The notes beneath the pieces are model-generated. The model made no database searches and was not told where the DNA came from. It saw only the letters and a list, made by a program, of their open reading frames with translations. Both the position numbers and the translations under genes were made by a program. Shown piece by piece: positions 3,490-21,193 of a stretch of 34,183 nt of DNA (the first letter of the stretch is position 1; every line of letters begins with the position of its first letter). This DNA comes from an uncultured Desulfotomaculum sp. (GTDB taxonomy: Bacteria > Bacillota > Desulfotomaculia > Desulfotomaculales > Desulfotomaculaceae), in assembly GCA_946411205.1 (NCBI GenBank), contig CAMKDG010000028.1, forward strand, positions 1 to 34,183. Reading direction: 5' to 3'.

Positions 3490-3819
3490 CAGAGTCACTC
3501 CTTGGTATTATTTAAACACTATCCTTAGTATGTATTGATAGCATTACCATAATGTATGAAATTTAAAAACTGTCTAGGCTTGTTGGGTATACAATACTTA
3601 CTAGGGTGATCTATATAAAATTCGTTCCATTAATTGATGTTGTGAATTGACCGAAGGCTGCCGGCCAATAGGTAGGGTTATCTTTTCCCTGACAAATGGC
3701 AAAAAGGGAGAGATGTAAAAATAGTTTTACACCACTCCCTTTAGGTTGTTGACAAAGCTAAAGGTTATAGGAACAAGTACCCTGCAGTAAGAGATTATCT
3801 ACTAAGCAATGATGATTTC
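3490..3819. other. gene-free stretch between tepA and ridA
   Basis: These 330 bases hold the terminator of the catabolic unit (3698-3742) and the region that must contain the tepA promoter. On the minus strand a CATACATTA sequence near 3550 fits the -10 element of mother-cell sigma factors, but I found no matching -35 element, so no promoter is called. No open frame with a ribosome site was seen. This is the left junction of the inserted catabolic block. No direct repeat, tRNA or transposase remnant is visible here. Confidence 0.6.
3698..3742 (-). terminator. terminator of the ureide/diaminopropionate unit
   Basis: On the minus strand AAAGGGAG pairs with CTCCCTTT (3703-3710 with 3735-3742), with an inner GTAAAA/TTTTAC stem, followed by five T residues. 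It lies about 80 bases after the ridA stop and closes the six-gene unit. The sequence downstream of the T run reads GCCATTTGT, which is shared with the hairpin at 22202-22248. Confidence 0.8.
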
Positions 3820-4188
3820 TTACAACTCGGCAATTGCTTCAATTTCGCAAAGTACGCCTTTGGGCAACTCCTTTACAGCAACGCAGCTGCGGGCTGGCTT
3901 CGAGATAAAATACCGCGCGTATACTTCGTTAAAGGCTGCAAAATCGGCCATATCCGCCAAAAAGCAGGTTGTTTTGACGACGTTTGCAAAGCCGCTGCCA
4001 GCAGCCTCCAACAGAGCACCCACGTTTTGGCAGCTCTGTTCCGCTTGTGCTGAAATGCCTTCAGGTACTTCACCGTTAGCGGGATTTACCGGAATCTGGC
4101 CGGAGGTATACACCATACCATTGCTGATGAACCCTTGCGAATAGGGGCCAATGGCGCCAGGGGCATTAGACGTTTTAATTTCCTTCAT
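3820..4188 (-). CDS. ridA: RidA family enamine/imine deaminase
   Basis: A 122-residue RidA/YjgF-type protein. The start is ATG 4188, six bases after GGAGGAG. Conserved landmarks are APGAIGPYSQG at the N-terminus, YTSGQIPVNPANGEV, CFLADMADFAAFNEVYARYF, and the substrate-binding arginine in KPARSCVAVKELPKGVLCEIEAIA. RidA hydrolyses 2-aminoacrylate and related enamines or imines made by PLP enzymes. That suits this unit well, because the first gene encodes diaminopropionate ammonia-lyase, whose reaction passes through 2-aminoacrylate. It is the last gene, 64 bases after the D-aminoacylase-like gene and before a terminator. It acts in the cytoplasm, probably as a trimer. Confidence 0.92.
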   Translation of the reverse strand: MKEIKTSNAPGAIGPYSQGFISNGMVYTSGQIPVNPANGEVPEGISAQAEQSCQNVGALLEAAGSGFANVVKTTCFLADMADFAAFNEVYARYFISKPARSCVAVKELPKGVLCEIEAIAEL

Positions 4189-4252
4189 AGTTATCTCCTC
4201 CATCACTTCTTACTTTGTACTCTAAACTTGTCCGGAGCATAGGAACGGTTTT

Positions 4253-5854
4253 CTATCTGACCTCTGTGCCCTTTTTGCGAAGCACCTTGCCGCTGCGGTT
4301 GCCCGTATGCTTACCTTGAGCTACGGTCAATGAGCCATTGATGATTACATATTCAAGGCCTTCAGGATACTGCACCGGTTCGGTGTAGGTGCCCTTGTCA
4401 ATGACCGTTTCCGGGTTAAAGATGGTGATATCGGCAAAGTAACCTTCACGAAGCTCGCCACGGTTTACAATCGTAAAAGTAGTGGCCGGCTTCTTGGTCA
4501 TTTTGTAAACGGCTTCTTCTAAGCTGAAGGTCTTTTCTTCCCGTACATACTTGCCAAGAATGCGGGGGAAGGCGCCAAATACACGAGGATGAGGCTTGCC
4601 TCCTAACAGACCGTCGGTGCAGGCGTTCATTTCGGGGCGCTTCATAAAGAGTTGAACATGCTCTTCGGTGCCGTAGAAATCTACCATGCCAACGGCATTT
4701 TCCTCCTGTAGCAGCAGATCAAAGGTTGCCTCATAGGGATCTTTGCCGCGCAACTGGCCCAGCTGAACCAGGTTAAGCCCGACTGTGTCTTGGTTTTTGC
4801 TGGTTTTTACACTGGTGACGAAGATCTGGTCCAGTCCGGCAAATTCTACGAAGTTGTCCCAACCGGGGATGCCATGCTCAATATCATGGATCATTTTTTT
4901 TCGCAGCTCGGGATCGGCCAGGCGCTCCAGAACCTTATCGGTGCCACCGTCGTGTACCCAAGGAGGAAGGATCACGCCCAGCATGGTGCTGCCTGCCACA
5001 TAGGGGTACTGGTCAAAGCTAACATGAATGCCTTCTCTTTGGGCTTTTTCCAGCAATTCAACAACCTTTTCAATCTTGTCCCAGTTTTTCTTGCCACAAA
5101 CCTTGAAGTGGGAATAGTGAATCTTAACCCCCGATTTACGTCCAATCTGGACAACTTCTTCCATTGACTCCAGAATGGTATCGGCTTCACTGCGCTGGTG
5201 AATGACGAAGATACCATCGTATGCCGCAACGACCTTACACATCTCAATAATCTCTTTGGATTCGGAATAGGCGCAGGGCATGTAGATCAGGCCGGTGGAA
5301 AGGCCGATGGCACCGGCCTCCATCTCACGACGGGTGATTTGGCGCATCTTTGCCAATTCTTCATCATTGGGCAGGCGGTTTTCCAGACCCATAGCTTCCA
5401 TGCGGATATTGCCATGTGGGACCAGATAGCACTCGTTCAACCCGGGCCCCACTTCTTCAATTAGTTTGAGGTAGCCTGCGGTGTTTTTGAATTCCCAGTT
5501 GATGTCGTCGCTGTCACCATCCAAACCGGCGAGATTTTTGCGCCAGGGACCGATGTACTCCATGGGCAAGGGAGCCAGAGAAATACCGTCCTGCCCCAGA
5601 ATTTCCGTGGTGATGCCCTGCAGCACCTTCGGGGCTACCTCGGGGTTAATTAAAATTTGCAAGTCGCTGTGGCTGTGGGTGTCAATAAAGCCGGGGGCCA
5701 CCACCAGACCGGTTGCGTCGATAACCAGGGCCCCTTCCGCTACAAGACCTGTGCCGATGGCGGCAATGCGGTCACCGTCCAGCAGTACGTCTGCCTGATA
5801 ACCCGCAGCACCACTGCCGTCTACAACCAATCCGTTTTGAATGAGAATTTTCAT
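4253..5854 (-). CDS. D-aminoacylase-like amidohydrolase
   Basis: A 533-residue metal-dependent amidohydrolase of the N-acyl-D-amino-acid deacylase/dihydroorotase-like group. The metal-binding HxH is in GFIDTHSHSD (H60, H62). Other family blocks are EMEAGAIGLSTGLIYMP, FVIHQRSEAD, VKIHYSHFK, ACTDGLLGGKPHPRVFGAFPRIL and the C-terminal beta-sandwich strand YVIINGSLTVAQGK. Where characterised D-aminoacylases have a metal-binding Cys (GNCGFS), this protein has GQDGIS with Asp at position 89. It would remove an N-acyl or possibly N-carbamoyl group from a D-amino acid. In this unit a ureido acid released by the hydantoinase is a reasonable substrate, but that is inferred. The ribosome site GGAGG is about 13 bases from the ATG, rather far. 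Confidence 0.85.
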   Translation of the reverse strand: MKILIQNGLVVDGSGAAGYQADVLLDGDRIAAIGTGLVAEGALVIDATGLVVAPGFIDTHSHSDLQILINPEVAPKVLQGITTEILGQDGISLAPLPMEYIGPWRKNLAGLDGDSDDINWEFKNTAGYLKLIEEVGPGLNECYLVPHGNIRMEAMGLENRLPNDEELAKMRQITRREMEAGAIGLSTGLIYMPCAYSESKEIIEMCKVVAAYDGIFVIHQRSEADTILESMEEVVQIGRKSGVKIHYSHFKVCGKKNWDKIEKVVELLEKAQREGIHVSFDQYPYVAGSTMLGVILPPWVHDGGTDKVLERLADPELRKKMIHDIEHGIPGWDNFVEFAGLDQIFVTSVKTSKNQDTVGLNLVQLGQLRGKDPYEATFDLLLQEENAVGMVDFYGTEEHVQLFMKRPEMNACTDGLLGGKPHPRVFGAFPRILGKYVREEKTFSLEEAVYKMTKKPATTFTIVNRGELREGYFADITIFNPETVIDKGTYTEPVQYPEGLEYVIINGSLTVAQGKHTGNRSGKVLRKKGTEVR

Positions 5855-5886
5855 GGATTCGTTAACGCCTCCACTTTTCTATCAAC

Positions 5887-7293
5887 TTAATCCTTCGCCG
5901 GATCAAAAAGAATTTCCTCACCAACACGCTGATCATACTTTTTGAGGGTAAATGTCTTCATCAGGACATAATACAGAACCACGCTGCAGCCCAGACCCGC
6001 AAAGAAGGCATAATCACCACACAGCAGGCCAACGCCAAAGGACACCACGATGGTAACCAGCGCACTCATATTAAAACCGTTGGTATACTTATATTGACCG
6101 TCTGCCACATACAGATCCCTTACATTCAGTTTGCACTTGCGAATGAGGAAATAGTCCACCAATAAAATACCGATAATGGGCCCAAGCATCTGGGAAATCC
6201 AAGCCTGTACCATGACCAAGAAGCCTCCTTGGCTCTGCAGCTTCCAGGGCATCATGCCCACAGACAGTACGCCGCAAATCACCGCGCTCATCCAATACTT
6301 AAGCTTCGGGAAGATATTGAGCAGCACCAGAGTGGGGGGCAAAAGGTTGGCCGCAGTATTGGTGGACCACTGAGCAAACATAATAACCAGAAAGCTAAAA
6401 ATTAGGACTATCTTGCTCTGGAAAAGGTCGGGAACAACTTGATTCAAATCCCAGTAACCGGAGGTAATGCCCGTCACAACGCCAACCAGCATGGTTCCGA
6501 TGCCTACCAGCATCAAGCCTACTACCTGTCCGATGATCGAGCGCTGGTTGCGGGCAAAAAAGCCTTTCTTCTCATATCCGTCCACCCGCTTAATCTGACG
6601 ACTAAGGTCGCTACCGTTCAGTGACATGGTAATCCAACCACCGGCAATACCCGCAATGGCATAGGCCAGGGAATATCTGCCTTCGGCAGGCGCTGCCATA
6701 ATATCTGGCAGTGAAATATTATATTTTTGCAGAGAAACCACCAGAATAGCACCAAACATAACGGCCAAGCAGGGAATGGCGACCCAATCAAATTTGGCCA
6801 TCGCTTTGAGTCCATACATGGTGTTCAAAATCTGGATAGCGGCAAAAAGAATGATCATCAGGGTCAGATTACTGAATCCAGGGAAAATAATTCCCAACAT
6901 CTGGTTAATCGCTGCCGCCCCAACCCAGGTTAGAAAACCAAACCAATACATGCCGGGGATGGCCCGAATAAGCCCTGCCACATAGGAACCCTTATAGCCA
7001 AAGGGAGCACGGGTGTACGCTGCAAAGGGAACCCCATATTTAGTGCCGATATCGCCCACCATGGCAGTTAAGGCAGTAACCAGACCGTAACCGATGGTCA
7101 TCACAAAAATCATGGTCCACGGCGACAGTCCGCGTCCGCCGTCGTAATATTGCGCGCCAAGGCTGAAGGCAACCACGTTAATCGTCATACCTGCCCAAAG
7201 AATAATGTAATCTGCCAGAGACATAGTGCGCTGATCGTCCGTGGTAGGTAACAACTCGCTGTTACGCAGGGCCTCATTACTGTTTGTTGTCAT
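5887..7293 (-). CDS. NCS1 family nucleobase/allantoin/hydantoin permease
   Basis: A 468-residue integral membrane transporter with about 12 hydrophobic segments. Family signatures are YTRAPFGYKGSYVAGLIRAIPGMYWFGFLTWVG (read in segments), LNGSDLSRQIKR and WSTNTAANLLPP, which match the Mhp1/PucI/CodB superfamily of cation-coupled importers for cytosine, uracil, allantoin and hydantoins. It starts at ATG 7293, eight bases after GGGAGG. It lies between the hydantoinase and the D-aminoacylase-like gene, which argues that it imports the cyclic ureide used by this unit. The transported compound cannot be fixed from sequence alone. Confidence 0.9.
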   Translation of the reverse strand: MTTNSNEALRNSELLPTTDDQRTMSLADYIILWAGMTINVVAFSLGAQYYDGGRGLSPWTMIFVMTIGYGLVTALTAMVGDIGTKYGVPFAAYTRAPFGYKGSYVAGLIRAIPGMYWFGFLTWVGAAAINQMLGIIFPGFSNLTLMIILFAAIQILNTMYGLKAMAKFDWVAIPCLAVMFGAILVVSLQKYNISLPDIMAAPAEGRYSLAYAIAGIAGGWITMSLNGSDLSRQIKRVDGYEKKGFFARNQRSIIGQVVGLMLVGIGTMLVGVVTGITSGYWDLNQVVPDLFQSKIVLIFSFLVIMFAQWSTNTAANLLPPTLVLLNIFPKLKYWMSAVICGVLSVGMMPWKLQSQGGFLVMVQAWISQMLGPIIGILLVDYFLIRKCKLNVRDLYVADGQYKYTNGFNMSALVTIVVSFGVGLLCGDYAFFAGLGCSVVLYYVLMKTFTLKKYDQRVGEEILFDPAKD

Positions 7294-7322
7294 AAATAGT
7301 TCCTCCCGTTCCTTCGTTCAAC

Positions 7323-8747
7323 TTAGTCCAGGCTATAGTGGGCCAGATATTGGGGATCAATCTTTCTCTTAAGGAACTTGCCGGCGCCCTTTTCACCTTT
7401 GAACTGACCATTTTCCACAATAATCTTACCCTTGGCAATGGTCATTACCGGGTAGCCTGTAACCTTCATGCCTTCATGCAGACAGTAGCTGATGTTATTG
7501 TGCAAAACCTCTTTGCTTAGTACTACTTCTTTGTCCAAGTCAACCAGCACAATGTCCGCGTCCGAACCGGGGGCGATAATGCCCTTTTGAGGATAGCAGC
7601 CATATACCTTGGCAATGTTAGTGCTGGTAAGAGCACAGAGCTTATTAATGGAAATCCTGCCCTTGTTGACCCCCTCGCTCAACAGGGTAGGGAGTCGGAT
7701 TTCCAGCCCGCTTAAACCGTTCACCACTTTGGTAAAATCCTGTTTCCAGGTGCCGTCTGGGTTTTTCTCCAAGAACATAGATTTTTCATCAATGTCAAAG
7801 GTACAGTCGTCTGAGCCGGTCAGAAGAATGGTACCGTCCTTAAGACCCTGCCAGAGATCTTCCGCCTCTTCGGGGGTGCGCAGCGGCGGTGAGCAAATCG
7901 CCAGATGGCCGTTTTCGCCTTGGTAGAGATCATCAAACAAGGTCAGATAGTGCGGGCCGGTTTCCACGTAAAGAGGAAGATCTTTAGCTTGGGCACGCCG
8001 CGCAGTGTCTAAAGCCTCACCATTCGTTGTATGAACGACAATCAACCCATTGCCGATATATTCGGTAAAATAAACAGCGCGAGCAAAGGCCTCTGCTTCG
8101 CAAAGCACCGGCTTGCATTTGGCAAAATTGACCCAGCTCATGTCGCCGGCTTGTCTGCATTTTTCAATGTTGGTTTCCGCAATGGCGTTACTCTCACAAT
8201 GCACCATGGGCAGACCGCCAACTTCTTTGGCCTTTTGAAATACCTTCAACATGGTTTCATCGTCACTCATGACGCCTTCTTTTTTATACGTCATAAACAT
8301 CTTAAAGGTTGGCATACCAGCATCAGCCATTTTTTCAATATCCGCAATGGCCTCAGGGGTTGACTCAACAAATTTGCCATGTACGCTATAGTCAATGGCG
8401 GATTCACTCATTTCCTCCGCCCGTGCCAATGCCTGTGTATAGGGAGACTGCCCGCGGCTCATGTTGGCAAAATCCATAAAGGTAGTCACACCGCCAAATG
8501 CCCCTGAAATACTCTGCTCAAAAAAGGTATTGGCGCCAAGACATCCCTGAAAGGGTGCCTGACAATGCATGTGTGCCTCAATCACACCGGGCATCACATA
8601 CTTGCCTGTCGCATCTACAACCGAAGCCGCTTCACTGGCGTTAAAATGGCCCAGTGCGGCGATTTTTCCGTCTTTTATGGCGACGTCGCATTCCATCGTG
8701 GCTGAGGGAGACACAACCTTGCCATTTTTAATGATTAAATCAAACAT
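7323..8747 (-). CDS. hyuA: D-hydantoinase/dihydropyrimidinase family ring-opening hydrolase
   Basis: A 474-residue cyclic amidohydrolase. All binuclear-metal ligands are present: HxH in IEAHMHCQAPF (H59, H61), the lysine that becomes carboxylated in TFKMFMTYK (K149), H183 in MVHCES, H239 in VVHTTNGEA and D313 in GSDDCTFD. It opens the ring of hydantoins, dihydropyrimidines or related ureides to N-carbamoyl amino acids. The start chosen is ATG 8747, eight bases after AAAGGAG; an upstream TTG overlaps that site. It follows the YgeY-like gene by 28 bases. The same trio (ygeX, ygeY and a hydantoinase) occurs in the Escherichia coli yge region and in anaerobic purine-degradation clusters. Allantoinase activity is an alternative. 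Confidence 0.9.
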   Translation of the reverse strand: MFDLIIKNGKVVSPSATMECDVAIKDGKIAALGHFNASEAASVVDATGKYVMPGVIEAHMHCQAPFQGCLGANTFFEQSISGAFGGVTTFMDFANMSRGQSPYTQALARAEEMSESAIDYSVHGKFVESTPEAIADIEKMADAGMPTFKMFMTYKKEGVMSDDETMLKVFQKAKEVGGLPMVHCESNAIAETNIEKCRQAGDMSWVNFAKCKPVLCEAEAFARAVYFTEYIGNGLIVVHTTNGEALDTARRAQAKDLPLYVETGPHYLTLFDDLYQGENGHLAICSPPLRTPEEAEDLWQGLKDGTILLTGSDDCTFDIDEKSMFLEKNPDGTWKQDFTKVVNGLSGLEIRLPTLLSEGVNKGRISINKLCALTSTNIAKVYGCYPQKGIIAPGSDADIVLVDLDKEVVLSKEVLHNNISYCLHEGMKVTGYPVMTIAKGKIIVENGQFKGEKGAGKFLKRKIDPQYLAHYSLD

Positions 8748-8775
8748 GGCCTTTGCTCCTTTCAAATTTATAATT

Positions 8776-9960
8776 CTACTTTAGCAGTGCTTGCATAATG
8801 CCATAGTAACAGTCAGTCACCTTGGTAAGCTGATCGATTTCGATATGTTCGTCCACAGTATGCGCTAAGTTTTCTTTGGAAGGACCCAGGCCAAAGGTTT
8901 TGATGCCCGCTTCGCCTGCATAATGGCTGCCGTTAGTGCAGAAGTTATATTGGGTAATAGAAGGATGGTAACCCATCTCCTTCAGTTGGCTAAAGACACT
9001 CTGCACAAAATCTGAATTCTCTTCATACAGCCAGCCGGGGAAGAACCGTTCGCCTTCAATCTCGTTGCCGGTATGACATTTTTCAACACCAACGGCATAG
9101 CTGGCCGTTACCTTCAGTTCCGGGTCCTGAGCCATCAACTGGCTAAGAAGCTGCTGAATAGGAAGCAAAACACTCTCCTTGGTTTCGCCTACCAACAGAC
9201 GGCGGTCATAGGTGGCACGGCAGTATTCCGGAACAACCGAAGCACCGGGGTAAGGACTGCTCTTGATGTCGGTAAGTTCTAAAATACCGTCCCCCAGCAC
9301 GGGATGATGGGGCGGTACCAGAGTGCGGATGGCATCGATCACCTTGGCCATCTTGTACACTGCATTAACGCCCTTTTCGGGGTTGGCACTGTGACAAGGA
9401 ATGCCAAAGGTTTCGATGACGATTTCGGCACGACCACGCTGACCAATCTTGAGATTCAGCTGGCTGGCTTCGCCGATGACGACATAGTCGGGCTGCACTT
9501 GCTTGCTGATTTCACGGGCAGCCACACCTTCAAAGCATTCTTCATGCACCACCCCGGCCACATAGATCTCACCGGCAAAGTCTTTGTTGGTGTCCTGCGC
9601 GAAGTTGGCGGCAGCACAGGTCATGGCGGCAACAGCACCCTTCATGTCGCTGGTACCGCGCCCATAAATCTTGCCATCGTGAATTTCAGCTGCGAAAGGG
9701 GGATGCTGCCATTCGGCCGTATTGGTGGCAGGCACGGTGTCTATGTGTCCGTCAAATAATAGCTTTTTGCCCCGCCGCTTGCCCTTGATACAGCCAATAA
9801 TGTTGCCATAACGATCTACAGTGACTTCGTCAAAGCCCAAGGCCTTCATATTCTCCTGCAGAACCTGAACTACCCCCTGCTCTTCGCCGGAGTAGCTCCG
9901 CTGACGAATAAGCTTTTGGCACAGTTCCACCACAGTAGATTCACGTTCTTTGCTCAACAT
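8776..9960 (-). CDS. ygeY: YgeY-like M20 family metallohydrolase
   Basis: A 394-residue M20 (ArgE/DapE/carboxypeptidase G2) hydrolase. The zinc site is clear: LLFDGHIDTVP (H72, D74), GRGTSDMKG (D105), VVHEECFEG (E140 as general base and E141 as ligand) and a late His in LAHTVDEHIEI. The dimerisation lid is inserted between about residues 195 and 300. Overall motif order and spacing follow YgeY, the hydrolase once tied to selenium metabolism and now to anaerobic purine breakdown. Start: ATG 9960, with GGAGGG upstream; the open frame extends further upstream but would run into ygeX. Likely job: removing an N-carbamoyl or N-acyl group to give diaminopropionate. This is inferred from neighbours. 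Confidence 0.85.
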   Translation of the reverse strand: MLSKERESTVVELCQKLIRQRSYSGEEQGVVQVLQENMKALGFDEVTVDRYGNIIGCIKGKRRGKKLLFDGHIDTVPATNTAEWQHPPFAAEIHDGKIYGRGTSDMKGAVAAMTCAAANFAQDTNKDFAGEIYVAGVVHEECFEGVAAREISKQVQPDYVVIGEASQLNLKIGQRGRAEIVIETFGIPCHSANPEKGVNAVYKMAKVIDAIRTLVPPHHPVLGDGILELTDIKSSPYPGASVVPEYCRATYDRRLLVGETKESVLLPIQQLLSQLMAQDPELKVTASYAVGVEKCHTGNEIEGERFFPGWLYEENSDFVQSVFSQLKEMGYHPSITQYNFCTNGSHYAGEAGIKTFGLGPSKENLAHTVDEHIEIDQLTKVTDCYYGIMQALLK

Positions 9961-9994
9961 AGTTTTTTCCCTCCAGTATTTATATGGATTGGGT

Positions 9995-11197
9995 CTACTT
10001 TTCACTGGGAAATTTGCCGTCCCAGACAACAGCGCGGTAATTTTCGCGGTCGGTATCGCCTTCGGTGCTGAAGAAAAGCACACGGGAGTTTTCGTCCAAC
10101 TTCAGAACCTCTTTGAGATGCTTCAATTCGGGATTGGTCATGATTTCGGCTACATAACCTAAGGTTGCGGCGCCGCTTTCACCCGAGATCACCCGCTCAT
10201 CCTGGGCGGCTGGGTTGCCTAGCATGCGCATACCCTTGGCGGCAACATAGTCGGGGCAGGAAACAAAGTTATCTGTGTAGTTTTTCAAAATCTCCCAGCC
10301 AATGCTGCAGGGTTCGCCACAGGCCAAGCCAGCCATGATGGTATCCATTTGCCCGGTAACAAAGTGCAGTTTGCCATCGTTTGCTTCGGCGGTGCGATAT
10401 AAGCAGTCTGCTTTGTTGGGTTCCACTACGGTCATGATGGGGCGGTCGTCGCCATACAGAGCAGAGAAGAAACCGACGATGGAAGCAGCCAGAGAGCCTA
10501 CACCAGCCTGTACAAAGATGTGTGTGGGCTTTTCAGGAAGTTGCTCATAGGCTTCCAGACCCATGGTGACATAACCCTGCATGATCCAGGCGGGAATGTC
10601 CTCATACCCATCCCAGGCGGTATCCTGAACCATAATCCACCCTTTATCTTCGGCCTGCTTATTTGCCAAACGAACTGCATCATCATAGTTCAGATTAGTG
10701 ATGGAAGCCTCAGCCCCTTCTGCACGGATGTTTTCCAGACGTTCAATGGCACTGCCCTTGGGCATGTAAACCACAGAATGCTGTTTAAGCTGGTTAGCGG
10801 TCCAGGCTACGCCACGTCCGTGGTTACCATCGGTAGCAGTAACAAAGGTCAGATCGCCAAGTTTTTCCCTTATCTCAGCAGAAACCATTCTTTTATAGGG
10901 CAGTTCGGCAATGTCCATCCCCAGTTCTTTGGCTATGTAGTTACCGATGGCAAAGCTGCCACCTAAGACCTTGAAGGCGTTCAGACCAAAGCGGTGAGAT
11001 TCATCCTTTACATAAAGGGTACCAAGTCCTAAAACCTGTGCAGTATTCTTCAACTCAACCAGAGGAGTTTTTTGATAAACCGGAAAGCTGGCATGAAAAC
11101 TCTGCACTTTTTTTGCTTCTGCCAAACTCAAAAATGATAAATCGTCTGTTTGTTGTTCGTCTCGCTTGTACGAAACCAACTTAAATAGCTCTTTCAT
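9995..11197 (-). CDS. ygeX: 2,3-diaminopropionate ammonia-lyase
   Basis: A 400-residue fold-type II PLP enzyme that converts 2,3-diaminopropionate to pyruvate and two ammonia molecules. The PLP lysine is K76 in GLNAFKVLGG, the catalytic aspartate corresponding to E. coli Asp120 is D123 in TATDGNHGRG, and GNHG holds the context of the cofactor phosphate site. VQAGVGSLAASIVG and FFSTEGDTDRENYRAVVWDG also match the family. It is the first gene of the unit, about 40 bases from the predicted sigma-54 start point. The GGAGGG site is 13 bases before ATG 11197, longer than usual. The lyase acts on D- or L-isomers in characterised homologues, and its 2-aminoacrylate intermediate explains the RidA gene in the same unit. 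Confidence 0.93.
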   Translation of the reverse strand: MKELFKLVSYKRDEQQTDDLSFLSLAEAKKVQSFHASFPVYQKTPLVELKNTAQVLGLGTLYVKDESHRFGLNAFKVLGGSFAIGNYIAKELGMDIAELPYKRMVSAEIREKLGDLTFVTATDGNHGRGVAWTANQLKQHSVVYMPKGSAIERLENIRAEGAEASITNLNYDDAVRLANKQAEDKGWIMVQDTAWDGYEDIPAWIMQGYVTMGLEAYEQLPEKPTHIFVQAGVGSLAASIVGFFSALYGDDRPIMTVVEPNKADCLYRTAEANDGKLHFVTGQMDTIMAGLACGEPCSIGWEILKNYTDNFVSCPDYVAAKGMRMLGNPAAQDERVISGESGAATLGYVAEIMTNPELKHLKEVLKLDENSRVLFFSTEGDTDRENYRAVVWDGKFPSEK

Positions 11198-11251
11198 AAG
11201 ATGATTTCATCCCTCCGTTATTCTTCGCTCAACAGCGTTTTTCTATTATTT

Positions 11252-11267
11252 AGCAAATTTTGTACCA
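11252..11267 (-). promoter_or_regulatory. sigma-54 (-24/-12) promoter of the ygeX unit
   Basis: The minus strand reads TGGTACAAAATTTGCT. This gives the invariant GG and GC doublets exactly ten bases apart and matches the TGGYRYR-N4-TTGCW consensus. Transcription would start near 11240, leaving a leader of about 43 bases before ygeX. The presence of a sigma-54 activator gene immediately upstream supports it strongly. No sigma-70-type promoter of comparable quality is seen before ygeX. Confidence 0.9.
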
Positions 11268-11290
11268 ATAATTTGTTTTTGTTGCAAAAT

Positions 11291-11328
11291 AATAAAAAAT
11301 GCGACATATTCTAAAAAATATCGCATTT
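11291..11328 (-). terminator. terminator of the sigma-54 activator gene
   Basis: On the minus strand AAATGCGATATT pairs with AATATGTCGCATTT (two-base bulge), followed at once by six T residues. It sits about 110 bases after the activator stop and just upstream of the sigma-54 promoter. It therefore keeps activator transcription from running into ygeX, making the unit depend on its own promoter. Confidence 0.8.
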
Positions 11329-11389
11329 CCGTTAAAAATCTAACAATAATTTTTTGATGCCTATCGAATATAGTGAATGAAAAAAGAAA

Positions 11390-11434
11390 TCTCAATTCTC
11401 GATTTGAGAAAAATTCTCGAAATAGGAATTGAGA
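11390..11434. promoter_or_regulatory. two tandem activator-binding dyads (candidate UAS)
   Basis: TCTCAA-N8-TTGAGA occurs at 11390-11409 and TCTCGA-N8-TTGAGA at 11415-11434, giving two 20-bp dyads with starts 25 bp apart. A further half-site TTGAGA lies at 11446 across the end of the activator gene. They lie about 120-170 bp upstream of the -24 element, the normal range for bacterial enhancer-binding proteins. The outer pair ATCTCAATTC and GAATTGAGAT is also a perfect 10-bp inverted repeat. Binding by the neighbouring Fis-type HTH protein is inferred. Confidence 0.75.
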
Positions 11435-11440
11435 TAATTA

Positions 11441-13222
11441 TTATTTTGAGAATTCCTCTGTCTTGCGGTACAAGGTAGCCAAGCTGATACCCAAGCTTTT
11501 GGCAGCCCTCTTTTTGCCTTGGGTGTTTTCACCAAACAGTTGCAAAGCCTTTTGAATTTCGCGGCGCTCCACTTCTTTTAGTGGCAGGACGGTTTGCACA
11601 TCGGTTGGTGGCGAAGAACCTTTTACCGAGTTAGCACTCCAATCAGGTTTGTCTGCCGTTCTACGCTGGTGCTCAAAAAAATCTCTTGGCAGGGTATCCA
11701 AATCCAAAATGCCTTCTTTATCGCTCATGTTGACCATAAATTCAATCGTGTTTTCCAATTCCCGTACATTCCCGTACCATGGATATGCCAATAATGCATC
11801 CATTGTTTGAGGTGGAATTCTGCACTGCGATTTACCAAAAAGGGCTGCATACCTCTGTGCAAACAGATTGGCGAGATCCGGAATATCCTTTTGCCGCTGC
11901 CGTAAAGGCAGAATATGTAAAGGAATGACATTCAGGCGGTAATACAGGTCTTCACGGAATTTACCGTCGGCAATCATTGATTTCAGATCTTTATTAGTGG
12001 CGGCAATCACCCGTACATCAACAGGTATGAGTTGGTTTGAGCCGATACGAACGATTTTTCTATCCTGTAGAATACGCAGCAGCTTTGCCTGCAGATACAG
12101 CGGCATGTCCCCAATTTCGTCTAAAAAGATGATGCCCTGGTTGGCCAATTCAAACTTGCCGATTCTTCCGTTGGGATCTGCCCCGGTAAAGGCACCTTTC
12201 ACATACCCAAACAGCTCCGACTCCAATAGGCTTTCTGGGATTGCCGCACAGTTGAGTGCAACAAACTGCTGGTCACGGCGATTGCCGGCCCGCCAAATAG
12301 CGGTGGCTGCCACCTCTTTGCCGGTGCCGCTTTCTCCAGTGATCAATACGGTGGAGGTACTGTTGGCTACCTTTTGAATTTCCGTACGTAAAGCGTCGGT
12401 TTCTTTGCTACTGCCTATTATGTTGCCGGTGGAAATTGCGGCCGTCAAAGCATACATCTTTTGATGCAGATTTTTAGAACGGGTAAATACCAGAACCTCT
12501 GCATAGCTTTCATCTGCCTTAAAGGGATTATAAATTTCACCTAATATAGATGTTTTCTTGTCCGCTACAGAGAGCAGGTACTCACTTTGGCCATTTATTT
12601 TATCCCGGGTGGAGATTAATTTTACTGGGCTTCCTTCTACTATTTCCATCTTCAGTTGCTTGCGGGCTTCATTGTTTGCCAGGGTGATTGTGCGGTCGCT
12701 GCCTAAAATCAAAATGCCCTGCTCCATATGGTCGATGGTACAGGATAATGCTGACAGCATTGACTCTTGTTTCTTTTGGTCAATTCGTTCGGTAGCTTTC
12801 GCTGCAATAAAGTTGGCAATTTGCTCAATGAGGCCAAGGTAGGTTCCCTCGTCCCGCAAAATAGTGTTTCTCTGCCACTCACTGGAACCCACCAAGCCAA
12901 TTATCCCGATGGTTTTTCCTCGGGCAAGAATGGGCATGGCGATTTCAATTTCCTCGGTGCAGTTGTTCTGCTTGGGGCAGTCCTGACAGATAGGATCACA
13001 GCCCGGCGTATAGATAATCTGCAGTTTGCCGGTTTTTAAAACCTGACGGTAAGTGTATCCTTCTGCCGACATGTCCATGTTAACAAAAGGGGCAAAAATT
13101 CCTGTCCCAGCTACGCGGAACAGGTCAGCATCCACTACCTCAACATCAACGTTTGAAATTTTGGCCATGATGGCGGCATATTTTTCTACCGTTTCCTGAA
13201 TCTCTAACAGAATACCAGCCAT
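11441..13222 (-). CDS. sigma-54-dependent transcriptional activator with Cys-rich sensor region
   Basis: A 593-residue enhancer-binding protein. Residues 1-145 form a GAF-like sensor region with the Cys set C75, C79, C82 and C88 (CDPICQDCPKQNNC). Residues from about 155-260 look like a PAS domain. The AAA+ domain has Walker A GESGTGKE (296-303), the sigma-54 contact loop GAFTGA (343-348) and Walker B IIFLDE (364-369). A Fis-type helix-turn-helix closes the protein (KKRAAKSLGISLATLYRK). The start is ATG 13222 after GGAAAGGAGACCT; the longer frame from 13249 overlaps that site. It almost certainly drives the ygeX unit through the dyads and promoter just downstream. The ligand is unknown; the cysteines suggest a metal or redox-sensitive centre. 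Confidence 0.92.
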   Translation of the reverse strand: MAGILLEIQETVEKYAAIMAKISNVDVEVVDADLFRVAGTGIFAPFVNMDMSAEGYTYRQVLKTGKLQIIYTPGCDPICQDCPKQNNCTEEIEIAMPILARGKTIGIIGLVGSSEWQRNTILRDEGTYLGLIEQIANFIAAKATERIDQKKQESMLSALSCTIDHMEQGILILGSDRTITLANNEARKQLKMEIVEGSPVKLISTRDKINGQSEYLLSVADKKTSILGEIYNPFKADESYAEVLVFTRSKNLHQKMYALTAAISTGNIIGSSKETDALRTEIQKVANSTSTVLITGESGTGKEVAATAIWRAGNRRDQQFVALNCAAIPESLLESELFGYVKGAFTGADPNGRIGKFELANQGIIFLDEIGDMPLYLQAKLLRILQDRKIVRIGSNQLIPVDVRVIAATNKDLKSMIADGKFREDLYYRLNVIPLHILPLRQRQKDIPDLANLFAQRYAALFGKSQCRIPPQTMDALLAYPWYGNVRELENTIEFMVNMSDKEGILDLDTLPRDFFEHQRRTADKPDWSANSVKGSSPPTDVQTVLPLKEVERREIQKALQLFGENTQGKKRAAKSLGISLATLYRKTEEFSK

Positions 13223-13350
13223 AGGTCTCCTTTCCGGGTAGTATCGCACTGGCTACCTTTCATGAACAAACTTATGATTTAGTGCATAAAATGCATCATC
13301 TTATTGAAATCGCTGCCAAACAATAGTTTTTATTTTACCATATTTTATAG

Positions 13351-13387
13351 AGAAATTAAAACTCCCACCATAAAATGTGGGAGTTTT
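13351..13387 (-). terminator. terminator after RNase J gene
   Basis: AAAACTCCCAC (13358-13368) pairs perfectly with GTGGGAGTTTT (13377-13387) around an 8-base loop, with TTTT then AATTT following on the minus strand. It starts 7 bases after the rnj stop. It separates the conserved backbone from the activator gene, whose own promoter must lie in 13223-13350. A TGCAT-AAA-ATGCA palindrome at 13283-13295 lies in that gap and may be an operator. Confidence 0.85.
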
Positions 13388-13394: not shown

Positions 13395-15059
13395 TTATAC
13401 TTCCATGATGATCGGTAAGATCATTGGCCTTCTCCTAGTTTTTTCATAAAGAAACTTTCCTAAATCATCTCTAATTACAGATTTCATAGCTGCCCATTCT
13501 GAAATTCCCCGGACACAGCATTTATCCAAGGCCATCTTAACCTTTGTTTTAGCCTCTTCCATCAACATCTCTGATTCGCGGACATAGACAAAACCTCTAG
13601 AAACGATATCTGGTCCAGACAATACTTGATTGGTTTCTTTGTTCATGGTAACCACCACAATCAAAATACCATCCTGGGATAATTGTTTTCTATCTCGTAA
13701 AACAATGTTCCCCACATCGCCGACACCAAGGCCGTCCACCAGTACTCTGCCGGAGGTTACCCTCCCCAGCGTCCGACCGGTTTTACGATTAAATTCCAGA
13801 ACTTGTCCATTTTCACCGACAAAGATATTTTCTGAGGGAATCCCCAGCTCTTTCGCTAGTTCTGCATGTCTTTTTAACATCCGGTATTCACCGTGTACAG
13901 GAATGAAAAACTTCGGTCGAATCAGGTTCAGCATAAGCTTTAATTCTTCCTGACTGGGGTGACCGGAAACGTGGATGCCAGAAACTGCTTCATAGATAAC
14001 CTTGGCCCCCAGTTTAAACAAATGGTCAATAATCCGGGCTACCAGTTTTTCATTGCCAGGTATTGGCGTGGCAGAAATCATGACGGTATCACCAGGCATG
14101 ATATCCACCTGGCGATGATCGTTCATAGCAATACGGGTTAACGCAGACATGGGCTCTCCTTGGCTGCCTGTGGTCAGTAAAACGACTTTATTCTTGGGCA
14201 GTCGATTCGCTTCATCCAGTTCAATCAAGGTTCCTTCGGGTATATGCAAATAGCCTAGGTCACCCGCTACCTGCACAACATTCGCCATACTCCGACCCAC
14301 CACGGCCACATGTCGTTCGTATTTGTGTGCTACTGTAATAGCTTGCTGCAACCGATGTACATTGGAAGCAAAGGTTGCAATAATAATTCTTTCCTGAGCA
14401 TGTCGGAAGGTATCATCAAAGGTATTCCCTACTACCCGCTCGGACATTGTGTAGCCAGACCGCTCAACATTTGTACTATCCGAGAGCATCACCAATACAC
14501 CCTTTTCTCCCAGAGCAGCAAACCGAGGTAAATCGATTACCTCGCCATCCACAGGAGTTTGGTCAATTTTAAAATCTCCCGTGTGCAGGAGAGTTCCCAC
14601 CGGTGTATGGATAGCAATGGCCATAGAATCAGGAATACTATGGCAAACTCGAATAAATTCTACCTTAAAGGGTCCTATGGGTATAATATCCCGGGGTTTC
14701 ACGGTCGTAAGCTTAACCTGTTCCAGCATATTGTGCTCTTTTAATTTTCCCTGCACCAAACCCAAGGTAAGCTTCGAACCATAGACCGGGACATTAATTT
14801 GCCGTAAAACGTAGGGCAACGCTCCAATATGATCTTCATGACCATGCGTTAGGAGTATACCTAATACCTGCTCCTTATGTTCCAAAAGATACGTTATATC
14901 AGGAATCACAATATCAATTCCTAACATTTCCTCTTCTGGAAACATTAAACCACAATCGATCAAAACAATATTTTCCCCAAATCTCACCACGGTCATGTTT
15001 TTACCGATCTCGCCTAATCCCCCCAGGGGAATTACAGCTAATTTTGGTTCCTTGGCCAA
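13395..15059 (-). CDS. rnj: ribonuclease J
   Basis: A 554-residue metallo-beta-lactamase/beta-CASP ribonuclease with endonuclease and 5'-3' exonuclease activity on mRNA and rRNA precursors. The zinc motif HGHEDH is at residues 72-77 (GILLTHGHEDHIGALP), with HTGDFKID and SDSTNVERSGYT further on, beta-CASP motifs up to SGHPSQEELKLML, and FIPVHGEYRMLKRH. The length matches RNase J. The start is TTG 15059 preceded by AGGAGGT. Its place next to dapA corresponds to Bacillus rnjB. It has its own sigma-A-like promoter (15204-15233) and terminator, so it is expressed independently of the dap genes. Whether a second RNase J exists elsewhere cannot be told. Confidence 0.95.
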   Translation of the reverse strand: MAKEPKLAVIPLGGLGEIGKNMTVVRFGENIVLIDCGLMFPEEEMLGIDIVIPDITYLLEHKEQVLGILLTHGHEDHIGALPYVLRQINVPVYGSKLTLGLVQGKLKEHNMLEQVKLTTVKPRDIIPIGPFKVEFIRVCHSIPDSMAIAIHTPVGTLLHTGDFKIDQTPVDGEVIDLPRFAALGEKGVLVMLSDSTNVERSGYTMSERVVGNTFDDTFRHAQERIIIATFASNVHRLQQAITVAHKYERHVAVVGRSMANVVQVAGDLGYLHIPEGTLIELDEANRLPKNKVVLLTTGSQGEPMSALTRIAMNDHRQVDIMPGDTVMISATPIPGNEKLVARIIDHLFKLGAKVIYEAVSGIHVSGHPSQEELKLMLNLIRPKFFIPVHGEYRMLKRHAELAKELGIPSENIFVGENGQVLEFNRKTGRTLGRVTSGRVLVDGLGVGDVGNIVLRDRKQLSQDGILIVVVTMNKETNQVLSGPDIVSRGFVYVRESEMLMEEAKTKVKMALDKCCVRGISEWAAMKSVIRDDLGKFLYEKTRRRPMILPIIMEV

Positions 15060-15203
15060 AACCGCACCTCCTATTATCTATATAATAAATCGATTCCTAA
15101 TACGTCAGTAGTTACTAAAATTACGGTGAGAAACTAGGAGAAGGCGGGGAAAATATGAAATTGTCCGAAATGTGGAAACCCGTTCCAGTAACCTACGCAA
15201 ACC

Positions 15204-15233
15204 ATTATACTAAAAAAATAGCTCTAACGGCAA
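15204..15233 (-). promoter_or_regulatory. sigma-A-like promoter for rnj
   Basis: On the minus strand TTGCCG (15228-15233) and a perfect TATAAT (15204-15209) are separated by 18 bases. The predicted leader before the TTG start is about 140 bases, long enough for post-transcriptional control. It lies downstream of the dapA terminator, so it is the only evident source of rnj transcripts. Confidence 0.6.
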
Positions 15234-15254
15234 TATAATTGCCCATAAGTGCCA

Positions 15255-15287
15255 AAATAATACAAACAGGGCTATCACCCTGTTTGT
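15255..15287 (-). terminator. terminator after dapA
   Basis: ACAAACAGGG (15262-15271) pairs perfectly with CCCTGTTTGT (15278-15287) around a 6-base loop, followed on the minus strand by ATTATTTT. It lies 22 bases after the dapA stop and ends the asd-dapG-dapA unit. Confidence 0.85.
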
Positions 15288-15308
15288 ATAGATAGTATTC
15301 GATCAAAT

Positions 15309-16199
15309 CTATAAAAGTTCAAGGTTTTGCAACAAACCTTTTACCGAATCAATCTCACTGGTGGTGGCATCCACCAAGGGCAACCGCACACTACCTACCG
15401 CTATGCCCTTTAAGCTCAAGGCTGTCTTAACAGGAACAGGATTGGTGGTAATAAATAATCCTTTAAATAACGGGAACAGTTTCTTATGCAGGTTAGCAGC
15501 CAGAGTGGTATTGCCTGCGGAAAAAGCATCGATCATCTCTTGAATCTGCTTACCAGCTACATGGGCTGCTACGCTAATAATTCCCTTAGCTCCCAGAGAC
15601 AGCATCGGGAGAGTCATGGAATCGTCACCACTGTAAATAGCAAAATCCTCGGGTAATACTTTCTTTAGTTCTGAAACCTGATCAATACTGCCTGCGGCTT
15701 CCTTAATGGCTACAATATTAGGAACATCTTCAGCCAGTCTTTTTACCGTTGCAGGTAAAACATTAATGCCGGTACGACCGGGAATGTTGTAAAGAATCAC
15801 CGGCAAAGTGGTACTTTCTGCAATGGCTTTAAAATGCCGATAAAGCCCTTCTTGGGAAGGTTTGTTATAATAAGGTGCCACCAACATAACCCCATCGCAG
15901 CCTACTTTCTCGGCTTCTTTGGTTAAGGCCATACTACTGGCGGTATCATAACTACCGGTACCAGCCACCACCGCTGCTTTGCCCCCCACTTCTTCCACCA
16001 CAGCCGTGAATAACGCAATCTTTTCATCTTTGGTCAGAGTTGGCGATTCTCCAGTGGTGCCACAAACTACCAGGCCGTCTGAGCCGTTTTCTACCAAATA
16101 TCGAGCTAATTTTTTTGCCTGCGCGTAATTAACAGACAGGTCGGTATTAAACGGGGTAACCATGGCAGTTAGCACACGTCCGAAATCAATCGCTGCCAT
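15309..16199 (-). CDS. dapA: 4-hydroxy-tetrahydrodipicolinate synthase
   Basis: A 296-residue TIM-barrel class I aldolase that condenses pyruvate with aspartate semialdehyde, the first committed step to diaminopimelate and dipicolinate. The Schiff-base lysine is K166 in [10 protein letters not shown], the catalytic tyrosine is Y137 in YNIPGRTG, and the substrate loop is [14 protein letters not shown] 16199 follows AGGATGGTG. It lies 40 bases after dapG and is the last gene of the asd-dapG-dapA run. Its product feeds DapB (lysine, cell wall) and the DpaAB enzyme (spore dipicolinate), both encoded just upstream. Confidence 0.95.
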
Positions 16200-16239
16200 T
16201 GACTTTCACCATCCTTTAAATTTATTCCACCGTGGATAT

Positions 16240-17475
16240 TTATTGGGTTTTGTTTCGATGACCCAGTTCAAACTTCCGGTGCAGGGCACGGATGGCTTTT
16301 TTCATATCATCTCTCTCCACCAGCACCCAGATGGTGGTATGGGAGTCGGAAGACTGTAGTATTTCTACTCCTTCTTCAGTCAGAGCCTGAACGATGCGTG
16401 CCATCACACCGGGCACCCCTGTAATACCTGCACCCACTGTAGAAACCTTGGCACAGTTGGAGCGTACCTGAGGCGTAATCCCTAGGTTTTCAAGAACGTC
16501 CAGTGCCTTCTTAGCCACTTCATCTTTAACCGTAATCATGATTAATTCAGGACTGACATTGATAAAGTCGATACTAATGTCTGCTAGAGCCAGTGAACGG
16601 AAAATGCGTAAGGCTGGATGTTCTACATTGATATCTTTGACCAGAATTTTTAGCTGAGTTACTCCCGCCACATGGGTGACTCCACAGGCCAGACGGTCTC
16701 TGGTAATATCAATGGTGCCATACACCCCGTAATGACTGGTAACCAGTGTACCCGTTGTCTCGGAAAAGGTAGACCGCACCCTGAGAGGGATATTACTTTG
16801 CATGGCAATTTCCACAGCCCGGGGATGAATTACTTTAGCGCCTTCGTGAGCCAATTGGCAGATCTCATTATAGGTGACGGTATCTAGAATCCGTGCATCC
16901 TCCACAATTCGAGGATCAGCAGTCATAATCCCTTCCACATCTGTATAGATGTCAATGCAATCCGCATTTAAAGCAACTCCCAGGGCAGAGGCGGTTGTAT
17001 CACTACCGCCCCGCCCCAGGGTGGTGACTTCGCCGTTTTCACTAACGCCTTGAAAACCCGTAACGACTACAATTTTCCCCTGCTCTGCTTGGGTAATGAT
17101 GTTCTTAGGGTCTACTCGGATAATTCTTGCGTCATTATGATTATTGTCGGTAATAATACCTGCCTGTGCTCCTGTTAGCAGCACCGCCTGACGACCCATA
17201 CGCTGTAGGGTGTTAATCATAGCTACACCGGAGATAATCTCGCCACAGGACATCAGTAAATCCATCTCTCTGGCCGGTAAATCACGGTTAATGGCTACAG
17301 CAAAATTGATCAGAGTATCTGTGGCATAAGGTTCGCCCACTCGCCCGATAGCCGATACCACTACTACTGGCACATAACCTTCATCTGCCGCGGTGATAAT
17401 CCTGTGGGCCACATGATCCCTGGATTCCTGGGTCACCAGTGAAGTGCCGCCAAATTTCTGAACCAGAAATTTCAT
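16240..17475 (-). CDS. dapG: aspartate kinase
   Basis: A 411-residue aspartokinase phosphorylating aspartate to start the aspartate-family pathway. Seen are KFGGTSL near the N-terminus, GRGGSDTTA, YTDVEGIMTADPRIV, and two C-terminal ACT domains for allosteric control (KILVKDINVEHPALRIF and VSTVGAGITGVPGVMARI regions). ATG 17475 lies two bases after the asd stop, so the genes are translationally coupled. Its position between asd and dapA matches Bacillus dapG, the diaminopimelate-sensitive isozyme; the effector here is inferred. Like that protein it may also have an internal start for a small ACT subunit, which was not tested. Confidence 0.94.
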   Translation of the reverse strand: MKFLVQKFGGTSLVTQESRDHVAHRIITAADEGYVPVVVVSAIGRVGEPYATDTLINFAVAINRDLPAREMDLLMSCGEIISGVAMINTLQRMGRQAVLLTGAQAGIITDNNHNDARIIRVDPKNIITQAEQGKIVVVTGFQGVSENGEVTTLGRGGSDTTASALGVALNADCIDIYTDVEGIMTADPRIVEDARILDTVTYNEICQLAHEGAKVIHPRAVEIAMQSNIPLRVRSTFSETTGTLVTSHYGVYGTIDITRDRLACGVTHVAGVTQLKILVKDINVEHPALRIFRSLALADISIDFINVSPELIMITVKDEVAKKALDVLENLGITPQVRSNCAKVSTVGAGITGVPGVMARIVQALTEEGVEILQSSDSHTTIWVLVERDDMKKAIRALHRKFELGHRNKTQ

Positions 17476-17477
17476 AA

Positions 17478-18500
17478 TTATCTCTTCTCCATTAGACAAT
17501 CGTACTTGAGTAACAATTCTGCTATTTGTACAGTATTGGTTGCCGCTCCCTTACGAATTTGATCGCCTACCACCCACAAGTTGAGACCATTCTCAATGGT
17601 ATTGTCTTCCCGTATCCGTCCCACGAAAACCTCATCTTTATCAGAGGTAAATAATGGCATGGGATACACTTTATTCTCTACATCATCCTGGACAATCAGT
17701 CCAGGTGCTTTGGCCAGTATTGCTTTAGCCTCAGCTGCCGACAGTTTACGGTCAGTTTCAATGTTGATAGATTCTGAATGACTGCGGTAAATAGGTACCC
17801 GTACTGTGGTAGCAGTAATCTTCACTTGCTCATCATGCATTATTTTCTGAGTTTCTTTAACCATCTTCCATTCTTCCTTAGTATAGTCCATATCCTGGAA
17901 GACATCAATGTGGGGGATTAGGTTAAAGGCAATTTGGTGCGCAAATTTATTGGGGGGATACTCCTGGCCATCTAAAACGGCCTTCACTTGGCCGGTTAAT
18001 TCTTCGATGCCTTCTTTGCCTGCACCAGAAACAGCCTGGTAGGTAGAAACAACCACACGTTTAATTCCCGCCGCATCATAGAGGGGCTTTAAAGCCACCA
18101 CCATGATAATGGTAGAACAATTAGGATTGGCAATAATACCCTTGTGCCACTTAACATCCTCAGGATTAACCTCCGGCACCACCAAAGGAACTGCCGGGTC
18201 CATCCGGTAGTTGCTGCTGTTGTCAATAACTACACAACCACTTTCCACTGCCGCCTGGCTAAACTCTAAGCTGGCCTTACCACCTGCAAACAGTGCCATA
18301 TCCATACCCTTAAAGGAATCCTCAGTGGTTTCTTCTACAATATACGTACGTCCCTGAAATTCTATTTCAGTTCCTGCAGACCGGGAAGTAGCACACAATT
18401 TCAATTCATTGATGGGGAAATTGCGCTCTCTTAATATATTTAAAAGTTCCTGACCTACTGCTCCGGTAGCACCGACAATAACAACATTTGCTTTTTTCAA
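17478..18500 (-). CDS. asd: aspartate-semialdehyde dehydrogenase
   Basis: A 340-residue NADP-dependent enzyme that reduces aspartyl phosphate. The nucleotide site is VGATGAVGQELL, the active-site cysteine is C128 in ANPNCSTI, and the catalytic region includes STYQAVSGAGKEGIEEL and RVPIYRSHSES. The start is TTG 18500, seven bases after GGAGGGG; there is no in-frame ATG nearby. dapG follows directly. The 166 bases upstream hold the perfect 20-bp inverted repeat at 18561-18606 and no clear promoter. Confidence 0.95.
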   Translation of the reverse strand: MKKANVVIVGATGAVGQELLNILRERNFPINELKLCATSRSAGTEIEFQGRTYIVEETTEDSFKGMDMALFAGGKASLEFSQAAVESGCVVIDNSSNYRMDPAVPLVVPEVNPEDVKWHKGIIANPNCSTIIMVVALKPLYDAAGIKRVVVSTYQAVSGAGKEGIEELTGQVKAVLDGQEYPPNKFAHQIAFNLIPHIDVFQDMDYTKEEWKMVKETQKIMHDEQVKITATTVRVPIYRSHSESINIETDRKLSAAEAKAILAKAPGLIVQDDVENKVYPMPLFTSDKDEVFVGRIREDNTIENGLNLWVVGDQIRKGAATNTVQIAELLLKYDCLMEKR

Positions 18501-18560
18501 CTTTCTTCCCCTCCAAAATCTTTTTACCCCCCCGGCTTAAGAAAACTTGGCTTGTTTACC

Positions 18561-18606
18561 TGCCTGTGACCTATAGGGTATGCCAGTACCCTATAGGTCA
18601 CAGGCA
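18561..18606. repeat. perfect 20-bp inverted repeat between dpaB and asd
   Basis: Two 20-base arms (18561-18580 and 18587-18606) are exact reverse complements around a 6-base loop. The element sits midway, 60 bases from the dpaB stop and 60 from the asd start. No T run follows on either strand, so it is not a standard terminator. It may be an mRNA-processing or stabilising hairpin separating the sporulation pair dpaA-dpaB from asd-dapG-dapA, or a dispersed palindromic element. Confidence 0.85.
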
Positions 18607-18666
18607 AGCTGGCAGAAGCCCAGTTTGCCTTGCAAGTTTCATAGTTTCCAATATGCCTAGGAACCT

Positions 18667-19251: not shown

Positions 19252-19265
19252 ATGCCGCACCTCCG

Positions 19266-20177: not shown

Positions 20178-20215
20178 CTTGTTTTCCTCCTCTCCAACCC
20201 TTCACTGACACATTA

Positions 20216-20243
20216 CATGATATGAGTTGGCAGAGAGCGTGGT
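20216..20243 (-). promoter_or_regulatory. possible sigma-K promoter for dpaA-dpaB
   Basis: On the minus strand CATATCATG (20216-20224) matches CATA-N3-TA except for the last base, with AC 17 bases upstream (20242-20243). The match is imperfect and the -35 element is only two bases, so this rests mainly on the known sigma-K control of spoVF in Bacillus. Confidence 0.25.
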
Positions 20244-20290
20244 GCTTGTACTGGATGGCTTAACAGAGGTGCGTAAATTGCCATATTTAG

Positions 20291-21088: not shown

Positions 21089-21193
21089 GTTTCCCACCAT
21101 CCTTTGATTCATTTATCTAAAAATTTTTATGTAGAATTTATGCTATATTATCTATTACCTTATTTATTCTTGTCAAGTTAGTTAAGACGTCAA

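Follow-up and report, generated by a model that had tools for sequence, protein, structure and literature searches.

A proposed stand-alone salvage operon in an uncultured Desulfotomaculum sp., resembling the lower half of reductive urate degradation

According to PMC12507026 (Li and colleagues, 2025), the reductive urate pathway, which was rebuilt in vitro in that work, comprises XdhD, YgfK or UacX, SsnA, HyuA, YgeW or UacY, YgeY and YgeX. HyuA opens 5-ureidomethylhydantoin (UMH) and 5-ureidodihydrouracil; UacY, a D-aminoacylase homologue of Clostridioides difficile assigned to the 2-ureido group, converts UMH to albizziin together with HyuA; and YgeY and YgeX lead to pyruvate, the enzymes shown in vitro for these steps being CdHyuA, CdUacY, EcYgeY and EcYgeX. 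UMH was detected in supernatants of urate-degrading Escherichia coli Nissle, from an engineered strain as well as from the wild type in the absence of glucose, indicating that at least UMH is available outside cells; albizziin was present at a low level in fresh LB and increased only with the engineered strain. By a word search, neither RidA nor an importer is part of their pathway account. Here we analyzed a stretch of 34,183 nucleotides from an uncultured Desulfotomaculum sp. (contig CAMKDG010000028.1; the whole stretch is called the window), which carries a six-gene operon resembling the lower half of this pathway. We consider it somewhat more probable than the opposite that this operon is a stand-alone, horizontally moving salvage module that would take UMH to pyruvate and ammonia.

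The operon occupies positions 3820-11197, with all genes on the minus strand and transcribed in the order ygeX, ygeY, hyuA, NCS1, uacY and ridA:

9995-11197, minus strand: YgeX1, ygeX-type diaminopropionate ammonia-lyase (TIGR03528, 654 bits; cut-off 532)
8776-9960, minus strand: YgeY1, ygeY-type M20 hydrolase, proposed 3-ureido hydrolase (NF009555, 523 bits; cut-off 321)
7323-8747 (open frame from 8765), minus strand: HyuA1, hydantoinase (TIGR02033, 408.3 bits; cut-off 393.25)
5887-7293, minus strand: NCS1 permease, similar to the hydantoin transporter Mhp1 (PDB matches 4d1a and 2jln, E about 7e-52)
4253-5854, minus strand: UacY1, D-aminoacylase-like amidohydrolase, proposed 2-ureido hydrolase (67% identical to UacY2, encoded elsewhere in the same genome, and 65% to the C. 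difficile protein at locus L041)
3820-4188 (open frame from 4206), minus strand: RidA1, proposed 2-aminoacrylate deaminase (TIGR00004, 161 bits, cut-off 106; PF01042)

From ygeX to ridA the intergenic gaps are 34, 28, 29, 32 and 64 bases, sizes that depend on the starts of ygeY, hyuA and ridA, for which the most likely ATG within a longer open frame was chosen. An earlier note on this DNA had described six co-directional genes separated by 28-64 bases, and our coordinates and family searches agreed with both this layout and the gene names. YgeX1 lies above the equivalog cut-off of the diaminopropionate ammonia-lyase model and has 5ygr and 4d9g as solved relatives; YgeY1 is under the cut-off of a second YgeY model (TIGR03526, 263 bits; cut-off 321.5). 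HyuA1 qualified as a D-hydantoinase/dihydropyrimidinase, its nearest relatives being broad D-hydantoinases, and its alignment showed intact catalytic motifs, in the residue roles that we presume for them. The NCS1 permease passes Pfam PF02133 and scores 238 bits on TIGR00800, below the cut-off of 353; the two Mhp1 entries were the sole PDB sequences that it matched. UacY1 is recognised by two general amidohydrolase models of Pfam and by none of the 25 NCBIfam models listed for it; among proteins of solved structure, D-aminoacylases match it best. Scanning the window for Rfam families and tRNAs gave no matches.

The 65% identity of UacY1 to the C. difficile protein indicates that the enzyme set corresponds to the lower half of the urate pathway. 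UacY1 is a D-aminoacylase homologue linked to ygeX and ygeY and replacing ygeW, and homologues of HyuA, UacY, YgeY and YgeX lie in one operon; judged by these homologies, HyuA1, UacY1, YgeY1 and YgeX1 would perform known chemistry. The complete pathway is not encoded in the window module, from which XdhD, YgfK/UacX and SsnA are absent. The route drawn in the earlier note, with import, ring opening, N-carbamoyl removal and diaminopropionate cleavage, matches this lower half as set out in PMC12507026, except that RidA and the importer stand outside that account; the D-aminoacylase-like member, which it had taken for an undescribed addition, is UacY. The enzyme combination is therefore already known, and what is new is the stand-alone arrangement with its own importer. 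We found no description of a stand-alone mobile form (NCS1 plus HyuA, with exchangeable entry cassettes) in open-access papers, which is weak evidence of novelty given that subscription journals were mostly uncovered.

When the genome to which the window belongs was searched for SsnA, a match of 684 bits was obtained on another contig (C6), in a cluster that encodes YgeX2, YgeY2, UacY2, SsnA, an NCS2 xanthine-type permease, UacX, HyuA2 and RidA2 and has yqeB, yqeC and mocA-like genes upstream. Its UacX is 73% identical to the protein at the equivalent place in C. difficile (L041). A molybdenum-hydroxylase domain at the contig end is a candidate XdhD, for which its position alone is suggestive; the domain search matched 8 of 10 genomes, including that of the congener G036, and so does not identify XdhD. 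The contig C6 cluster (L088, 7266-17411), which is preceded by genes for the selenium-molybdenum cofactor, is in itself an instance of a C. difficile-type reductive urate cluster in a Desulforamulus relative. Compared with the contig C6 copies, the window proteins are 67% (UacY), 65% (YgeY), 62% (YgeX), 54% (RidA) and 29% (HyuA) identical, so that the window module is a paralogue of the lower half in which both the hydantoinase and the importer differ. Since the genome has this second cluster of its own, the window set is not needed for urate.

The module is also an insertion between rnjA and a clpP-like gene:

3557-13358, no strand assigned: stretch inserted by comparison with L107 (limits approximate), the flanks aligning to L107 up to these points

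In all seven relatives fetched (G036 included, G037 left out) rnjA is followed by the clpP-like gene, at a distance of 111-285 bases in six of them and of 1275 in L105, as against about 9.8 kb, holding the module, in the window. The first seven kilobases of the module are richer in G+C (0.47-0.52 at 4001-11000) than the flank (0.40-0.48 at 14001-34000); values at 11001-13000 are 0.39-0.48. The hyuA-NCS1 stretch had no match in PLSDB, a result by which a plasmid origin is not excluded. In G036 (locus L091, a single contig) the activator described below and all six genes are present in the same order at 91-95% identity, near 0.26 Mb, with rnjA copies at 1.99 and 2.13 Mb. The module of G036 is thus remote from rnjA, and the same module occupies different places in different genomes. 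G036 has no SsnA over the cut-off and a single UacY match at E 1e-100. [Clostridium] symbiosum (L020) likewise has the six genes in this order, so that the order, when searched for in other genomes, proved to recur and is not due to chance. The idea of a self-contained module, put forward in the earlier note, gains support from the SsnA-less congener and from the fuller cluster elsewhere in the window's genome. Window-type UacY was found in 3 of 9 genus members (the window genome, G035 and G036), and the SsnA coordinates of G035 are identical to those of D. aeronauticus (G001); a UacY match at E 1e-100 was obtained in 4 of 80 relatives searched, the fourth being G057 (72%). Gene content and order, promoter motif, paralogy, motif conservation and insertion can all be read in the sequence itself.

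Directly upstream of the operon lie a gene for a predicted activator and putative regulatory sites, of which the activator gene and the promoter had gone unlisted in the earlier note:

11441-13249, minus strand: sigma-54 activator gene (PF00158, PF25601, PF02954)
11252-11268, minus strand: -24/-12 sigma-54 promoter motif TTGGTACAAAATTTGCT, ending 54 bases before ygeX
11438-11452, minus strand: candidate activator site 1, TTCTCAAAATGAGAA-like with 2 mismatches, overlapping the end of the activator gene
11396-11410, minus strand: candidate activator site 2, TTCTCAAAATGAGAA-like with 2 mismatches

The activator has Sigma54_activat, AAA lid and Fis-type helix-turn-helix domains with a GAFTGA loop, and is 36% identical to E. 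coli YgeV; of 37 related loci, 27 have a homologue of it no more than 12 kb from uacY. Its N-terminal C-x2-C-x5-C motif, which is possibly a metal or redox site, is kept in all 34 aligned proteins (32 loci, YgeV included). The promoter pattern, written only after the site had been read in the window, matched the window once against 0.10 expected, and 10 of 100 shuffles contained a match. A site scoring at least 10 of 13 was present upstream of ygeX in 28/31 window-type loci and 5/8 others, a comparison from which loci like L041, whose YgeX match is short or broken, were dropped; when the corresponding region of the window was shuffled base by base, 14 of 2000 shuffles reached this score. None of 300 single-base shuffles gave a match as good as candidate site 1. 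TTCTCAAAATGAGAA-like repeats with at most 2 mismatches preceded the promoter in 24 of the 31 window-type loci and 2 of the 8 others, the consensus having been read by eye from the very loci later scored. Taken together, the activator gene and the promoter appear to belong to the operon, which would accordingly be under sigma-54 control. In PMC11448449, on urate in C. difficile, DioR is named as a predicted sigma-54 activator for purine genes; a word search of PMC6615313, published in 2019 on the sigma-54 regulons of Clostridiales, matched none of six terms. A scan of the window for sigma-70 promoters and terminators returned 17 and 11 sites, compared with 13.3 and 11.9 in shuffles, and was not used; the same terminator scan, which did not exceed shuffles, placed a hairpin just after rnjA at 13387-13358.

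To relate the window enzymes to those of the urate type, we compared their conserved positions. In UacY, 235 positions were invariant in both types and 8 were fixed differences, and in YgeY the numbers were 171 and 9, the type-2 sets being small (5 UacY sequences, 3 of them from C. difficile, and 4 of YgeY). UacY1 and YgeY1 thus keep the conserved motifs of the urate-type enzymes. These shared motifs, the Mhp1-like importer together with the intact HyuA1 motifs, and the occurrence of UMH in supernatants all point to the linear intermediate of the urate pathway. In the scheme below we infer every substrate and transport step, as well as any direction of movement between genomes. The NCS1 permease would import UMH or a close 5-substituted hydantoin, whose ring HyuA1 would open to give 2,3-diureidopropionate. 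UacY1 would act as the 2-ureido hydrolase and YgeY1 as the 3-ureido hydrolase, after which YgeX1 would eliminate ammonia, with pyruvate and a second ammonia arising via 2-aminoacrylate, a compound that RidA1 may help to hydrolyse. The adjoining activator would turn the operon on via the sigma-54 promoter. Allantoin, raised as a possible substrate in the earlier note, was not supported, the allantoin permease (164 bits against 620) and allantoinase (283 against 631) models scoring well under their cut-offs.

We then examined how widely this core occurs. A scan of 84,980 species genomes with UacY1 yielded 291 relatives, and the 80 best were retained; 37 of these, with UacY1 identity of at least 75%, were treated as close (window-type) loci, and because several of them stop at the end of a contig, failure to find a gene in them does not show that it is absent. 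The 37 close loci contained YgeX in 30, YgeY in 30, the activator in 27 and RidA in 25, and SsnA or UacX in none. A sodium:solute symporter was present in 28/37, and HyuA with NCS1 in 4/37 (L001, L005, L007 and L020), L007 having the symporter as well; among the 29 close loci that have YgeY and over 6 kb of sequence before uacY, 26 had the symporter, 3 had NCS1, one of these together with the symporter, and only L049 had neither. At the genome level, where SsnA was searched in 30 and hydantoinase in 31 genomes (the other 14 type-1 genomes for SsnA only), many of them metagenome-assembled, HyuA1 matched at 61% or more in 5/31 (G000, G001, G005, G014 and G030), each time adjoining NCS1. SsnA exceeded the cut-off in 3 of the 37 genomes with a close UacY (2/23 plus 1/14), compared with 35 of 200 sampled Lachnospiraceae, a sample from one family with no matched control; UacY1 was found in 3 of these 200, namely the centre genome and, at 66-70% identity, two others that also have SsnA. 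UacY homologues of at least 49% identity were accompanied by YgeY in 45 of 54 cases, and those below 49% had YgeY or YgeX nearby in 0 of 26.

More distant cores have other carriers. An Anaerocolumna locus (L036, 4445-15790) encodes a hydantoinase, a PF01177 racemase, an ECF-like transporter (a CbiQ-type membrane protein and two ATPases), UacY, YgeX, the activator and YgeY, the racemase being suggestive only, as PF01177 also covers other racemases. An amino-acid ABC carrier accompanies the core in L037, and MFS carriers do so in L032 and L034. In a Veillonellaceae locus (L044, 8784-21584) a window-like YgeY-UacY pair lies beside YgeX, a second, E. coli-type YgeY, YgeW, YqeA, an NCS2 permease, SsnA and YgfK. 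The most economical account is that the NCS1 plus HyuA1 form of the module would salvage UMH and the symporter form linear ureido acids. As a wider and distinctly tentative proposal, anaerobic urate breakdown may be a division of labour, in which a guild of bacteria that have no enzymes for urate entry feeds on the hydantoin and ureido acids escaping from uricolytic neighbours. Its members would rely on a mobile UacY-YgeY-YgeX-RidA core under its own sigma-54 activator with exchangeable entry cassettes (NCS1 and hydantoinase for the ring form; for the linear form a sodium symporter or an ABC or MFS carrier; or ECF-like carrier, hydantoinase and racemase).

Several observations weigh against UMH salvage as we propose it. 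A hydantoinase match at E 1e-60 was lacking in 18 of 19 symporter-type genomes, so that the family as a whole does not share a hydantoin as substrate, although this threshold just admits the window genome's own HyuA2 and may miss distant hydantoinases. The low identity of HyuA1 to HyuA2 means that homology does not fix the ring substrate of HyuA1. Among the Mhp1 residues that we take to contact hydantoin (Trp117, Gln121, Gly219, Trp220 and the Asn of the AAN motif), Gln121 is replaced by Leu in the window NCS1 and in 4 of 6 aligned NCS1 proteins overall. The L032 and L034 cores are nearer the urate type, but SsnA does not exceed the cut-off in either genome, indicating that type labels, which reflect best match and operon content, do not map simply to function. 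Trees were built of two proteins, YgeX and YgeY, after removal of sequences that had an internal stop or fell short of 85% of the expected length: in the YgeX tree the window type forms one group (32 rows, among them L043; support 100/96), whereas the YgeY tree does not separate the types cleanly and leaves the genome's own urate copy in an unresolved fork.

An alternative explanation is one without any tie to urate, in which UacY1, YgeY1, YgeX1 and RidA1 degrade some other external N-substituted diaminopropionate or 5-substituted hydantoin, for example a plant or dietary derivative. Such a substrate would fit the differing importers (NCS1, sodium symporter, ECF-like, amino-acid ABC and MFS) carried by the same or related cores, the strong divergence of HyuA1 from HyuA2 and the absence of SsnA from most carriers. 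We nevertheless regard it as unlikely, because both ureido-cleaving enzymes keep the urate-type motifs and the need for both activities is most simply explained by diureidopropionate.

It is also conceivable that the window set is a mere extra copy, giving more flux in the cell's own urate pathway or recapturing UMH leaked by the same cell. The fuller cluster on contig C6 is consistent with this, as is D. aeronauticus, which likewise has both module and urate cluster. Against it stand the activator, promoter and importer that belong to the module itself; in addition, the module is retained in G036, where no SsnA exceeds the cut-off, and 34 of the 37 genomes with a close UacY have no SsnA over the cut-off, making this explanation improbable. 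General salvage of D-hydantoins and N-carbamoyl-D-amino acids, with YgeX1 acting beyond diaminopropionate, would suit the broad D-hydantoinases and D-aminoacylases nearest to HyuA1 and UacY1 but is very improbable, given the equivalog-level score of YgeX1 and the link to YgeY or YgeX that vanishes among UacY homologues below 49% identity.

If salvage of UMH and ureido acids by such modules is real, part of the urate nitrogen and carbon in gut and sediments moves between species as hydantoin or ureido acids, and counts of ygeX or ygeY genes overstate the number of urate degraders. The compact, assayable module could also help to settle the order of ureido-group removal, which a commentary (PMC12990295) treats as an open question.

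Elsewhere in the window, an inverted repeat at 21194-21281 (28-base arms, 96% complementary, 32 bases apart) upstream of a dapB-like gene may be a small mobile repeat, and a perfect 20-base inverted repeat with a 6-base spacer lies at 18561-18606 between asd-like and dipicolinate synthase B genes. A plus-strand open reading frame at 1751-2311 has a Coat F (spore coat) domain, and three tandem copies of a 33-39-base repeat occupy 34068-34178, at the window edge adjoining the IF-2 gene.

Set beside the described systems, the window NCS1 shares with Mhp1 the family and, in alignment, Trp117, Gly219, Trp220 and the AAN-motif Asn, and differs from it in having Leu in place of Gln121. With the C. 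difficile-type urate cluster the module has in common homologues of HyuA, UacY, YgeY and YgeX and a sigma-54 activator homologue nearby (L041, 39% identity); it differs in lacking XdhD, UacX, SsnA and the NCS2 permease, in its divergent HyuA1 and NCS1 importer, and in standing apart from the genome's own fuller cluster. With the E. coli ygeV-ygeW-ygeX-ygeY-hyuA-yqeA cluster it shares YgeX, YgeY, HyuA and a related activator (YgeV). By contrast with that cluster, the window module has no upper half, UacY takes the place of YgeW/YqeA, and the importer is encoded within the operon.

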